Assembly: GCA_000702525.1 (NCBI GenBank)
Contig: JNIN01000001.1
Location: forward strand, 248,001-312,000
Reading direction: 5' to 3'
Length of the DNA stretch: 64,000 nucleotides
Source: Lachnospiraceae bacterium AC2012
GTDB taxonomy: Bacteria; Bacillota; Clostridia; Lachnospirales; Lachnospiraceae
Shown one piece after another: positions 43,808 through 47,975 of the stretch (within the stretch, counting starts at the first letter, position 1; each line of letters starts with the position of its first letter). The notes under the pieces were generated by a model, which was given only the letters and a program-made list of their open reading frames with translations, ran no database searches and had not been told where the DNA came from. A program made the translations under genes and the position numbers.

Positions 43808-46246
43808 ATGTCAGAAGTGAAAAGTAACAGACAATTTGATATAGAACAGATACTTAGTGAGATGACGTTGGAAGAGAAGTGTGGACTCCTGACGGGTGCA
43901 GAGGCGTTTAAGACGAGAGCATATAAACGACATCATATACCGGCGTTAACATTTTCCGATGGACCGCATGGACTTCGCAAGCAGGCAGAAGGCGCGAATC
44001 ATCTGGGAATTGGTGGTAGTATACCGGCAACTTGTTTCCCGACGGCGGCTACCGTTGCAAACAGCTGGGATCCGTCACTTGGGGAGATGCTTGGAGAAGC
44101 ATTGGGCGAAGAAGCAGCAGCACAGGCTGTGAATGTGATGCTCGGACCAGGGCTGAATATCAAGAGAAATCCGCTCTGTGGTAGAAACTTCGAATACTTC
44201 TCCGAGGATCCTTATCTGGCTGGTAAGATGGCTGCGGGCTATGTGCGTGGTATGCAAAAGAATGGGCTAAGTGCCTGTCCAAAGCATTTTGCCGTAAACA
44301 GTCAGGAACATTGCCGTATGTCCGTGGATTCCGTGGTGGATGAACGAACACTTCGCGAAATCTATTTGACAGGGTTTGAAATCGTTGTGAAGGAAGCAAA
44401 GCCAAAGACGATTATGACATCCTATAATCGTGTGAATGGAATTTATGCCAATGAGAATCCGCATCTGTTAAAGGACATTCTGAAAAAGGAATGGGGTTAT
44501 GATGGCACGATTGTTACGGATTGGGGCGGTTCCAATGATCATGTGGAAGGCGTTCGAAACGGAAGTAATTTCGAGATGCCATCTCCTGGATTGGATCCGG
44601 TCATCGAATTGGTAGATGCTGTTCGAAATGGTGAGATTGAAGAGGCTGTTGTGGATCAGCGTGTTGCGGAAGCATTGGAGTTGATTTTGACAACAGATCA
44701 AGTGATTCAGAATACCCCGGACCAGTTTGATTGTTCTTCACACCATCAGGTTGCTGAGAAGGTGGCAGAACAGTCGATGGTTCTTCTGAAAAATGAGAAT
44801 ATCTTACCATTGAAACCAAAAACGAAGGTGGCTTTGATCGGAGATTTTGTGGAGACACCTCGTTATCAAGGCGCTGGATCTTCTCTGGTAAACCCAACCA
44901 AACTGGAGAATTTAAAAGATGCAGTGGAACAGACGACGCTTCAAACCGTAGGTTTTGCGAAGGGATATGAAAGAAATGGTGCAGCATCTGCATCCTTAAA
45001 AACAGAGGCTGTCAATCTGGCAAAGCAGGCAGAAATCGTGCTTTTCGTAATGGGATTAGACGAGATCAAGGAGTCAGAGGGTCTGGACCGTAAATCGATG
45101 AAGATTAATGAAAACCAGATCGAAGTATTACGTGAAGTTTCAGAAGCAAATCCGAATGTGGTGGTTCTGCTTTGCGGAGGGTCATCTGTCGAGATGCCTT
45201 GGGCTACGTATGCGAAGGGAATACTCTATGCATGTCTGGGTGGACAGGCATGGGCGACAGCAGCGCTTAGGATTTTGACGGGAGAAGTGAATCCATCCGG
45301 TAAGTTGGCAGAAACATATCCAATGGAATACAAAGATGTTCCAAGCGCGGGTGCATTTCCAAGTCGTAAGAAAACGGCGGAATACAGGGAAGGTATCTAT
45401 GTGGGCTATCGATATTTCGACAAAGTAGATGCCGAAGTCAGATATCCATTTGGATATGGACTTAGCTATACAAGTTTCTTATATTCGGATTTCGAAGTGA
45501 AACCGGATGGTGTGCACTTTGTGATTACGAATACGGGCACACGTGATGGAGCAGAAATAGCACAGCTTTATATAGGAATGGAAGAATCCGCGGTATTTAG
45601 ACCGAAGAAGGAATTAAAGGGATTTACAAAGGTGTTCTTAAAAGCTGGGGAAAGCAAGAAAGTAGAAATCCCATTCGACGATAAGACCTTCCGTTATTTC
45701 GATGTAAAAGAGAATGGATGGAGAGTCGAAGAGGGAGATTATACGGTGATGATTGGTGCTCATTCTAGGGATATTAGATTAAAGAGCATTTATCATATAG
45801 AAGGATCCAAACCGGCCAATCCATATGAAGGAAGAGATATGTCCTGTTATGAAGTTGGCAAGGTGGATTACATCTCTGATCAGCAGTTTGAGAATCTTCT
45901 GGGACGCCCAATCCCGACGCAGGAGATTGTCATTGATCGTAATATCACATTTAACCAGTTAAATCATGGACGCAGTCCAATCTTTTGGCTGGTTTGGTTA
46001 GTTATGACACTGTTGATGAAACTCTCAGAGAAATCTGGTAAGCCAAATCTAAACCTGATGTTTATCTACAATATGCCACTTCGTGGTTTACAGAAGATGA
46101 CAGGAGGAGCTTTTAGCATGGGCATGGTAGATGCGCTTGTTATGGAGGTAAAGGGCTTCTGGATTATTGGAATTGTGCGTTTTCTGGTGGAACTTATTAA
46201 GAATCTTATCAGAAATGCAAATATGGCAAAGCGATTAAATCGCTAA
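43808..46246 (+). CDS. GH3 glycoside hydrolase with hydrophobic C-terminal extension
   Basis: An 812-residue beta-glucosidase-type enzyme in the normal order: GH3 barrel (about 12-310; SDGPHGLRKQ, CGRNFEYFSEDP, KHFAVNSQE, nucleophile D238 in GTIVTDWGG), GH3 C-domain (about 335-540), FnIII-like domain (about 575-650; EIAQLYIG, ELKGFTKV). After residue ~705 it has an unusual ~100-residue extension with two hydrophobic segments (FWLVWLVMTLLMKL and FWIIGIVRFLVELI) and GLQKMTGGAFSMGMV between them. No signal peptide, so it probably sits on the cytoplasmic face of the membrane. Substrate unknown. Operon with the GtrA-like gene. Confidence 0.9.
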   Translation: MSEVKSNRQFDIEQILSEMTLEEKCGLLTGAEAFKTRAYKRHHIPALTFSDGPHGLRKQAEGANHLGIGGSIPATCFPTAATVANSWDPSLGEMLGEALGEEAAAQAVNVMLGPGLNIKRNPLCGRNFEYFSEDPYLAGKMAAGYVRGMQKNGLSACPKHFAVNSQEHCRMSVDSVVDERTLREIYLTGFEIVVKEAKPKTIMTSYNRVNGIYANENPHLLKDILKKEWGYDGTIVTDWGGSNDHVEGVRNGSNFEMPSPGLDPVIELVDAVRNGEIEEAVVDQRVAEALELILTTDQVIQNTPDQFDCSSHHQVAEKVAEQSMVLLKNENILPLKPKTKVALIGDFVETPRYQGAGSSLVNPTKLENLKDAVEQTTLQTVGFAKGYERNGAASASLKTEAVNLAKQAEIVLFVMGLDEIKESEGLDRKSMKINENQIEVLREVSEANPNVVVLLCGGSSVEMPWATYAKGILYACLGGQAWATAALRILTGEVNPSGKLAETYPMEYKDVPSAGAFPSRKKTAEYREGIYVGYRYFDKVDAEVRYPFGYGLSYTSFLYSDFEVKPDGVHFVITNTGTRDGAEIAQLYIGMEESAVFRPKKELKGFTKVFLKAGESKKVEIPFDDKTFRYFDVKENGWRVEEGDYTVMIGAHSRDIRLKSIYHIEGSKPANPYEGRDMSCYEVGKVDYISDQQFENLLGRPIPTQEIVIDRNITFNQLNHGRSPIFWLVWLVMTLLMKLSEKSGKPNLNLMFIYNMPLRGLQKMTGGAFSMGMVDALVMEVKGFWIIGIVRFLVELIKNLIRNANMAKRLNR

Positions 46247-46277
46247 TGCAAATTCCCCCTATGAAATAGTAAGAAAA

Positions 46278-46318
46278 GGTTGATACATCTCACACACGTG
46301 TATCAGCCTTTTTTCTTT
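46278..46318 (+). terminator. intrinsic terminator after the second GH3 gene
   Basis: GGTTGATACA / TGTATCAGCC hairpin followed by TTTTTTCTTTT. Confidence 0.85.
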
Positions 46319-46439
46319 TGTCAAAATTTAGATGAATTATTTTCATGTTGTGATTCGAAAAGATGAAACAAAAGTAACGAACACTATATGTGGTGCCACA
46401 TGAATATGAGATACCTATATATAGTCTTATCCATTCCTC

Positions 46440-46465
46440 CACCTGGTCACCACTTCCCACCACTT
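46440..46465 (-). promoter_or_regulatory. upstream array of three inverted MraZ-type boxes
   Basis: CCACCT (46440), CCACTT (46450) and CCACTT (46460), each starting exactly 10 bp after the previous; read on the minus strand they are AAGTGG/AGGTGG, the same word as in the downstream array. They lie upstream of the mraZ promoter. Confidence 0.65.
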
Positions 46466-46498
46466 TAGAAAAACCTTGTAAAATGGGCGTTTTCTGCA

Positions 46499-46527
46499 TT
46501 GCTTTTTGCGAGTTTTGATTGTAAAAT
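46499..46527 (+). promoter_or_regulatory. sigma-A promoter of the dcw cluster
   Basis: TTGCTT (46499-46504), 17-bp spacer, TAAAAT (46522-46527), immediately followed by the AAGTGG repeats. Confidence 0.75.
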
Positions 46528-46530
46528 TAA

Positions 46531-46570
46531 ACAAAAGTGGTAAAAAGTGGTAACAAGTGGTACGAAGTGG
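46531..46570 (+). promoter_or_regulatory. four tandem MraZ-binding boxes (10-bp period)
   Basis: Four successive decamers, each ending in AAGTGG (46535-46540, 46545-46550, 46555-46560, 46565-46570), start at the predicted transcription start and end at the ribosome site of mraZ. MraZ is known to bind short GTGG-type repeats at its own promoter in other bacteria, so this is very probably its autoregulatory operator. Confidence 0.85.
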
Positions 46571-46587
46571 AAGGAGGTGTTTTGCAT

Positions 46588-47019
46588 ATGTTCATGGGGG
46601 AGTACAGCCATAGCGTTGATGCGAAGGGCAGACTCATTATGCCAGCAAAGTTCAGAGAACAGCTCGGCGCTGAGTTTGTAGTAACAAAAGGACTGGATGG
46701 CTGCCTCTTTGTATATCCCATGGAGGAATGGCAAAACATCGAAGCCAAATTCCGCGAAGTACCACTTACCACTAAGGATGCTCGTAAGTTTTCTAGATTT
46801 TTCTTTGCTGGTGCAGCATCTTTAGAGCTGGATAAGCAGGGAAGAATCTTACTTCCTGCAGTCCTGAGAGAATATGCCGAAGTACAGAAAGATGTTGTGC
46901 TTGTTGGCGTGTTGAATCGAATTGAAATTTGGGATAAGGACCGTTGGGAAGACAGTAACAGTTATGATGATATGGACGAGGTTGCAGAACATATGGCAGA
47001 CCTTGGACTTAGTATTTAA
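46588..47019 (+). CDS. mraZ: transcriptional regulator MraZ
   Basis: AbrB-like ring-forming DNA-binding protein, first gene of the dcw cluster and its autoregulator. [21 protein letters not shown] begins the first SpoVT/AbrB-like unit; a second ([26 protein letters not shown]) follows. ATG 46588 with AAGGAGGTG upstream gives the usual 143 residues; the frame start at 46537 lies inside the operator repeats. The boxes flanking its promoter fit its known DNA preference. Confidence 0.96.
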
Positions 47020-47030
47020 GGAGCATCGAT

Positions 47031-47975
47031 ATGGAATTTAATCATTATTCCGTCATGTTAGAGGAAACGATTGAAAATTTAAATATTAAACCGGATGGCA
47101 TCTATGTAGATGGTACCTTAGGCGGCGCAGGACATTCGTCCGAGATTGCGAAGCGCCTGACAACCGGTAAGTTAATTGGAATTGATCAGGATGCCAATGC
47201 GATTGAAGCGGCGACAGAGAGATTGGAGCCTTATAAGGATCGCGTAGAAATTGTCAGAAGCAATTATGAGAATATGGTGAATGTTGTACATTCCCTTGGA
47301 TATGATCATGTGGATGGTATCCTTCTTGATCTTGGAGTTTCTTCCTTCCAGTTAGATACCGCATCGAGAGGTTTCTCTTACAGAGATGAGGATGCAGTCC
47401 TCGACATGCGTATGGATCAGAGAAATCCTAAGACGGCGGCGGATATCGTGAATGAATATAGTGAAATGGAACTGTTCCATATTATTCGTGATTTTGGAGA
47501 GGACCGTTTTGCGAAAAATATTGCGAAACATATTGTGAAGGCAAGAGCCGAGAAAAGAATCGAAACAGCCGGACAGTTAAATGAGATTATTCGTGCTGCG
47601 ATTCCAAAGAAGATTCAGGTGACGGGTGGTAGACCGGAGAAGAGAACTTATCAGGCGATTCGAATTGAACTCAATCGAGAACTTGAGGTTCTTAGACAGA
47701 ATCTTACCGATATGATTGATCTTTTAAATGAAGATGGAAGAATTTGTATTATTACATTCCATTCATTGGAAGATCGTATTGTAAAGAATAATTTTAGAAC
47801 AAATGAAAATCCATGTACTTGTCCATCGGACTTTCCGGTGTGTGTATGTGGAAAGAAATCAAAAGGAAAAGTAATTACTAGAAAACCTATTTTACCAAGT
47901 GATAAAGAGTTAGAAGAAAATAGTCGTTCAAAGAGCGCTAAATTAAGAGTCTTCGAACGACACATCGCCGAGTAG
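47031..47975 (+). CDS. rsmH: 16S rRNA (cytosine1402-N4)-methyltransferase
   Basis: SAM-dependent methyltransferase (formerly MraW) modifying the ribosomal P site. [17 protein letters not shown] holds the SAM motif; [20 protein letters not shown] and [17 protein letters not shown] are family hallmarks. 314 residues, normal. Starts 11 bp after mraZ; AAGGAG upstream. Confidence 0.97.

Follow-up and report, generated by a model that had tools for sequence, protein, structure and literature searches.

The mraZ gene of Lachnospiraceae bacterium AC2012 has GTGG-core boxes on both sides of its promoter, the downstream boxes in direct orientation and the upstream boxes inverted. This raises the question of whether the upstream boxes form a second operator for MraZ, and of how two opposed arrays might act together on one promoter. 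We analysed a stretch of 64,000 nucleotides containing the gene (the window) and compared the arrangement with that in related genomes. To our knowledge, MraZ arrays opposed to each other on either side of a promoter have not been described before. A search by title and abstract, with most subscription papers outside its reach, returned no report of mirror MraZ arrays or of NrdR boxes before mraZ.

In the available portions of two reports, MraZ operators are described as direct repeats before mraZ (PMC7761207, PMC8475190; E. coli via these). The B. cenocepacia operator has four 7-nt repeats with 3-nt spacers, downstream of the -10 element and over the start, and a probe of the upstream half only (-386 to -136) was unbound by MraZ (PMC7761207). 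In Mollicutes the repeats are AAAGTG[T/G], and MraZ is a repressor in both E. coli and M. genitalium (PMC8475190). As far as these portions describe them, the operators of E. coli, Mollicutes and B. cenocepacia resemble the present one in their direct GTG-type repeats adjoining the mraZ promoter, but they are single arrays, whereas the present locus has a second array, inverted and placed upstream of the promoter at a near-fixed helical phase.

Two opposed arrays at the mraZ promoter

In the window mraZ and rsmH form the start of a division and cell-wall cluster (Table 1), and a profile search matched the PF02381 domain twice in the mraZ product. The promoter proposed in the initial annotation, TTGCTT-17-TAAAAT, was confirmed by direct reading at 46499-46504 and 46522-46527, as were four direct AAGTGG boxes at 46535-46570 with an exact 10-bp period. 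In a promoter scan the pair of hexamers scored below the threshold; in 27 of 29 loci that carry both arrays, the first GTGG is preceded by a TAnnnT hexamer whose end lies 8-10 bp away. We would expect the transcription start near 46534-46536. The main array has the pattern of a MraZ operator, with direct GTGG-core tandem boxes at 10 bp downstream of the -10 element; it would span about +1 to +36 and, as elsewhere in bacteria, is expected to block the start. Plus-strand GTGG pairs with a 10-bp period are present in 159 of 159 Lachnospiraceae mraZ upstream regions, and the main array is present in 57 of 59 mraZ loci from other families of the class.

Table 1. Positions of the features in and around the mraZ operator region of the window.
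Feature	Position	Strand	Remarks
GH3 glycosidase gene	43808-46246		ends upstream of the mraZ operator region
NrdR-type box 1, CACTATATGTGGTG	46382-46395		12/14 to CACWAKATMTWGTG
NrdR-type box 2, ACCTATATATAGTC	46413-46426		11/14; 31 bp from box 1
Degenerate third inverted box, AGGTGG	46439-46444	-	11 bp from its neighbour
Inverted MraZ-type box, AAGTGG	46450-46455	-	10 bp from inner box; CCAC pair conserved in clade
Inverted MraZ-type box, AAGTGG, inner	46460-46465	-	inner CCAC to first main-array GTGG, 77 bp
Putative -35, TTGCTT	46499-46504	+	weak by consensus; relatives often have TTGATT or similar there
Putative -10, TAAAAT	46522-46527	+	17 bp after TTGCTT
MraZ box 1, AAGTGG, main array	46535-46540	+	direct read
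MraZ box 2, AAGTGG, main array	46545-46550	+	direct read
MraZ box 3, AAGTGG, main array	46555-46560	+	direct read
MraZ box 4, AAGTGG, main array	46565-46570	+	direct read
Ribosome binding site, AAGGAGG	46571-46577	+	found by eye
mraZ	46588-47019	+	143 aa, ATG at 46588; leads cluster; TIGR00242, 167.5 bits against a cut-off of 98.35
rsmH (mraW)	47031-47975	+	TIGR00006, 378 bits against a cut-off of 154

The upstream array also consists of GTGG-core tandem boxes adjoining the promoter, but it is less regular than had been proposed. Inverted boxes start at 46450 and 46460 as annotated; the third starts at 46439 rather than 46440 and reads AGGTGG rather than AAGTGG, and because it lies 11 bp from its neighbour, the exact 10-bp period is true of two upstream boxes only. 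The array lies at about -96 to -70, upstream of the -10 element, unlike the direct downstream MraZ operators. Exact AAGTGG-N4-AAGTGG occurs four times in the 2.55-Mb genome (three on the plus strand, one on the minus), each time before mraZ. With one mismatch allowed it occurs in 9 places genome-wide against 13 for a backward control pattern, so that the exact pairs alone are informative. Single AAGTGG words number 40 in the window against 24.8 expected, a count reached in 1 of 100 shuffles, which is weak evidence.

The 5' neighbour of mraZ is lgt in the three relatives scanned (L104, L009, L093), and in the window the GH3 gene takes the place of lgt, even by comparison with the sister genome (L093). 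We rejected the idea that the boxes belong to the upstream gene, since that neighbour varies between lgt and GH3 and the module stays with mraZ. After the GH3 gene, at about 46278-46320, we spotted by eye a hairpin, GGTTGATACA/TGTATCAGCC, with a loop of 11 bases and a T-run, which the loop-length limit had excluded from our scan.

Conservation and spacing of the inverted array

Lachnospiraceae mraZ loci were drawn from among the matches listed for 367 genomes (30 loci, and 60 fetched lower down). Of 192 loci with a tblastn match, 33 were removed as duplicates or for having less than 250 bp upstream, which left 159 distinct regions. By the initial annotation's own criterion, absence of the upstream boxes from close relatives would have refuted its reading; they are in fact conserved in relatives: a 10-bp CCAC pair is found in 28 of 32 loci of one Lachnospiraceae clade versus 8 of 127 other Lachnospiraceae mraZ loci. 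Into this clade we counted L145, whose genome G353 is of the same genus as G037 (L126). The pair was found in none of 59 mraZ loci from other families of the class (60 among the matches listed were fetched, and L246 had too little upstream DNA to be counted). A minus-strand pair lies anywhere within up to 400 bp in 36 of the 159 regions, and 40-130 bp before the main array in 31. Between 40 and 160 bp upstream of the main array no direct GTGG pair at 10 bp was found, against 35 CCAC pairs.

A tree of MraZ and RsmH was built for the 111 loci with rsmH in reach, by a quick method with SH-aLRT support only and a midpoint root. One branch of 31 rows (SH-aLRT 98) has the inverted array in 27 of them, and its distribution on the tree takes seven changes at the fewest; the array-bearing rows outside the branch are L012, L108 and L133. 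Four clade loci (L014, L105, L117 and L033) retain mraZ without the inverted array. We also looked for the two-array pattern across whole genomes. At gaps of 45-75 bp it occurred in 13 of 397 family genomes, with 1 of 397 for the backward control, and gaps of 76-106 bp added four genomes (17 in total), with 4 of 397 for the control; every listed match in the family lay directly upstream of mraZ, as checked by tblastn. In 391 genomes of the class there were two matches, both in Lachnospiraceae, and two for the control; none fell in the 375 class genomes from other families. On the locus and genome-wide counts together, the mirror array is a Lachnospiraceae feature in these samples, mainly of one clade that includes Pseudobutyrivibrio and the genus of the window.

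The arrays lie at a nearly constant distance from each other, and the larger shifts in it mostly amount to full turns of the helix. Measured between the inner CCAC and the first GTGG, the distance is 67 (one locus), 77 (ten), 78 (seven), 79 (four) or 87 bp (seven) in 29 of the 31 array-bearing loci, which form 18 clusters at 90% MraZ identity. In L006 there are two distinct inverted 10-bp pairs, one 79 bp and the other 120 bp from the main array; the locus is entered in the 79-bp class by the nearer. The remaining two loci, L012 (110 bp) and L108 (119 bp), both outside the clade, were omitted from the 29-locus spacing and NrdR tests for their distances above 100 bp. These two and the second pair of L006 fall on a 10.5-bp lattice set at 78 bp, yet may be chance pairs. 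Since related loci inherit their spacing, the shifts alone count as independent evidence; six of seven distinct shifts lie within 1.5 bp of the lattice, three of which may be chance, and the one that breaks the rule is G029, with a spacing of 81 bp, 3 bp out of phase.

In an alignment of nine Pseudobutyrivibrio loci, the 77- and 87-bp classes differ by one exact 10-bp indel beside the inverted array, as between Pseudobutyrivibrio xylanivorans DSM 14809 (L023, 77 bp) and Pseudobutyrivibrio sp. MD2005 (L021, 87 bp). Such exact differences between species are natural experiments. Counts of the word CCAC peak at 77-79, 87-89 and 97-98 bp upstream of the main array. For the reversed word CACC there are lesser peaks, near 79, 86-87 and 89; the direct word GTGG has none of these. 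A near-fixed distance with whole-turn changes would be expected if proteins bound to the two arrays make contact over the promoter. For the 77-79 class (21 loci), the standard deviation is 0.76 bp from array to array and 0.79 bp from array to promoter, so that the two are indistinguishable as the reference for the phase.

A NrdR-type box pair upstream of the inverted array

Further upstream, at 46382-46426, the window contains a pair of NrdR-type boxes that is missing from the initial annotation. The NrdR box consensus is acaCwAtATaTwGtgt. The window's pair is the sole match in the 2.55-Mb genome to boxes 31 bp apart with at most three mismatches, and none of 200 shuffles did as well. Single boxes had to be discarded as evidence, with 98 matches in the genome against 85 for a control at two or fewer mismatches; the pair alone is informative. 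The genome encodes NrdR (TIGR00244, 199 bits over its cut-off, G000:C1:953033-953470).

In the portions of the literature available, the NrdR operator has two palindromic boxes with a 15-16 bp spacer; three helical turns separate their centres and four are tolerated, in a phase-dependent manner (PMC12051234, PMC9110341). NrdR binds with dATP plus ATP, kinks the DNA sharply and turns it by 180 degrees (PMC12051234, PMC9110341), and published sites often, but not always, overlap the polymerase site (PMC9110341). The boxes described here are likewise two palindromes about three turns apart, and the same boxes occur at nrdD. They differ from the operators of nrd genes in lying before mraZ and upstream of the polymerase site; they end about 109 bp before the expected start, with no overlap.

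Since the motif was first noticed by eye in these very mraZ loci, its score there carries some circularity, which does not extend to the checks at nrdD, the controls or the distances. Of 26 nrdD loci from 17 clade genomes, 25 have a box scoring at least 12/14 close to the start of the gene, compared with 29 of 127 non-clade mraZ regions (28 nrdD matches were found and 26 read, one partial and one weak match being omitted). The best partner box lies at 30-32 bp in 22 of the 26 and at 40-41 bp in four, from a search that allowed seven spacings and had no shuffle control. The window's own genome (G000) is one of these four; its nrdD has the box CACAACATATAGTG with the best partner at 41 bp. At mraZ, 17 of 32 clade regions and 15 of the 127 others contain pairs scoring at least 22/28, compared with 0 to 1 for two scrambled motifs, 1 of 377 coding control windows and 4 to 8 of 158 for the same upstream regions at other spacings. 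Outside the family they occur at 4 of 59 mraZ loci.

A significant pair, matched by at most 1% of shuffles, is present in 16 of the 29 loci with both arrays. Nine of the 16 have it 36-37 bp from the inner CCAC and five 47-48 bp, two classes that differ by about one turn; L115 (66 bp, where a weaker partner would give 36) and L007 (82 bp) fall outside both. The 13 loci without a significant pair are the nine Pseudobutyrivibrio loci, L003, L097, L099 and L133. Phasing of the pair to the main array in the clade has a vector length of 0.81 over 18 loci, but since the value is similar for any period from 9.5 to 11.5 bp it is no proof of a helical period. Outside the clade we set such phasing aside as unconvincing (vector length 0.35 at 10.5 bp, 28 loci). 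From the sequence we consider it probable that NrdR binds the pair before mraZ; this estimate and the one given below for MraZ on the inverted array are judgements rather than computed figures.

The clade loci L117 and L033 have good NrdR-type pairs and no mirror array. Pairs 30-32 bp apart in loci lacking the mirror array were also seen in L028, L036, L051, L063, L071, L140, L156, L167 and others, and in such Lachnospiraceae they often lie about 108, 119 or 131 bp before the main array. Given these pairs, a link from dNTPs to division may be older and wider than the inverted array.

A proposed composite operator and its alternatives

How might these elements work together? We hypothesise that the inverted boxes serve MraZ as a second operator beyond the promoter, kept on a constant face of the helix with respect to the main operator and joining it in a bent or looped repression complex, probably with NrdR added. 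The opposite orientation would suit two oligomers on a two-fold axis, which makes such a complex our best guess, and on balance we lean slightly towards it. MraZ oligomers on the two arrays would probably touch, or one assembly would span both, and the roughly 70 bp of promoter DNA between them would be bent or looped, which would tighten autorepression of the division and cell-wall cluster led by mraZ. The initial annotation had pictured two MraZ rings facing each other across the promoter; the NrdR-type pair fits a larger complex. MraZ structures include PDB entries 1n0e, 9qlr, 9qlg, 9sx6 and others, and opposed MraZ arrays would bear on the role of the ring.

The NrdR pair would lie between about -153 and -109, phased with the inverted array, and NrdR would probably add to or modulate the complex. 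At that distance it is too far upstream to cover the polymerase site, so that an effect of NrdR by way of this complex is more likely. With dATP and ATP bound, NrdR would bend the DNA sharply and feed dNTP status into division-gene expression. The stronger version, a three-part phased switch in which NrdR and MraZ on two opposed arrays let the dNTP pool directly set division-gene transcription, is more tentative, and we would place it a little short of an even chance. The evidence supports the initial interpretation in part, and we would widen it to a composite, helically phased operator. How DNA synthesis is coupled to the expression of division genes is a long-standing question, and with NrdR and MraZ apparently on one helical scaffold it becomes one that can be tested at the bench. 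AraC, GalR and LacI also act from two operators that flank a promoter and whose spacing matters by the helical turn. The present arrangement is similar in both respects, although here a loop is only proposed, and it differs in that the putative regulator is a ring-forming AbrB-fold protein on opposed arrays of tandem boxes.

It is possible that MraZ on the inverted array instead acts on RNA polymerase, activating at low MraZ while the downstream array represses. The fixed helical phase of the site (about -96 to -70) would then be relative to the promoter. Positions near -82 are typical of activators that touch the alpha subunit, and in the 21 loci the distance from the array to the -10 element is as constant as that between the arrays. 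The observation, in the available part of one report, that MraZ overproduction in M. gallisepticum is accompanied by more FtsZ also leaves activation possible (PMC8475190). Polymerase contact, however, needs neither a fixed opposite orientation nor an identical period, and in L018 compensated indels (-1 and +1) preserve the array-to-array distance, albeit in a single case. We regard this alternative as unlikely, though with a chance well worth considering.

Both the bent or looped complex and contact with polymerase presuppose that MraZ occupies the inverted boxes. Across the 29 loci these boxes keep the GTGG core and the 10-bp period, and mostly lack the preceding AA that the two AAGTGG boxes of the window have. 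An A directly precedes GTGG in 26% of 58 upstream boxes versus 88% of 584 downstream box counts, in which inner boxes are counted twice. G follows at the second and third base after the core in 88% and 64% of upstream boxes versus 51% and 41% downstream. Given the missing AA, the upstream boxes may be bound less strongly by MraZ or be the targets of another protein; in most species the former is likely and the latter possible. These differing flanks, together with the phasing of the upstream boxes to the NrdR pair, would suit a non-MraZ protein on the inverted words (another AbrB-type regulator or a partner of NrdR), with MraZ downstream only. The core and 10-bp period are nevertheless identical in the two arrays, and the window's exact AAGTGG pair is found nowhere else in the genome, and we consider another protein improbable. 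We judge it likely that the inverted array is a MraZ site.

A role at the RNA level would have a transcript begin near the NrdR boxes, carry CCAC complementary to the GUGG of the mraZ leader and end at a hairpin. The arrays are indeed reverse complements, and in five of 28 clade spacers between the array and the -35 element (L020, L104, L110, L126 and L145) a strong hairpin is followed by TTGATTTTT, a T-run that doubles as the -35. Besides these five, 6 of 131 other loci have a hairpin with z below -2; the comparison as a whole gives a Mann-Whitney p of 0.0009. The spacer of the window, however, has no hairpin (z -0.13), the two Rfam matches at E up to 1 were both far below the gathering score, no candidate passed the threshold of the promoter scan, and RNA pairing needs no helical phasing. 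We consider this role very improbable, and we rejected a hairpin or attenuator as a general explanation, as it is limited to those five clade spacers and the 6 other loci and absent from the spacer of the window. That the inverted array is a chance occurrence or a functionless, decayed duplicate of the promoter is hardly credible: its absence from four clade members could be read in that way, but its near-fixed spacing is kept across clade loci whose MraZ is 56 to 98% identical to that of the window, and it occurs at none of the 59 loci outside the family.

We also considered a divergent promoter served by the inverted array and rejected it. None scored over the threshold on either strand of 46240-46600, which is weak evidence because the mraZ promoter likewise falls below it. 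Among the 28 loci with sufficient upstream sequence, 23 have their nearest upstream open reading frame (100 aa or longer) on the same strand, which counts against a divergent promoter. That frame is on the other strand in L020, L094, L126, L133 and L033; those of L020, L126 and L133 are short open frames and may be spurious.

The arms of the spacer hairpins differ between species and keep their complementarity, and such a hairpin could be a terminator that insulates the promoter. A TGGGATGnCCCT-like motif abuts the outer inverted box on its upstream side in L003, L094, L104, L110, L020 and L109; it may be a third box in decay or the margin of the second NrdR box.
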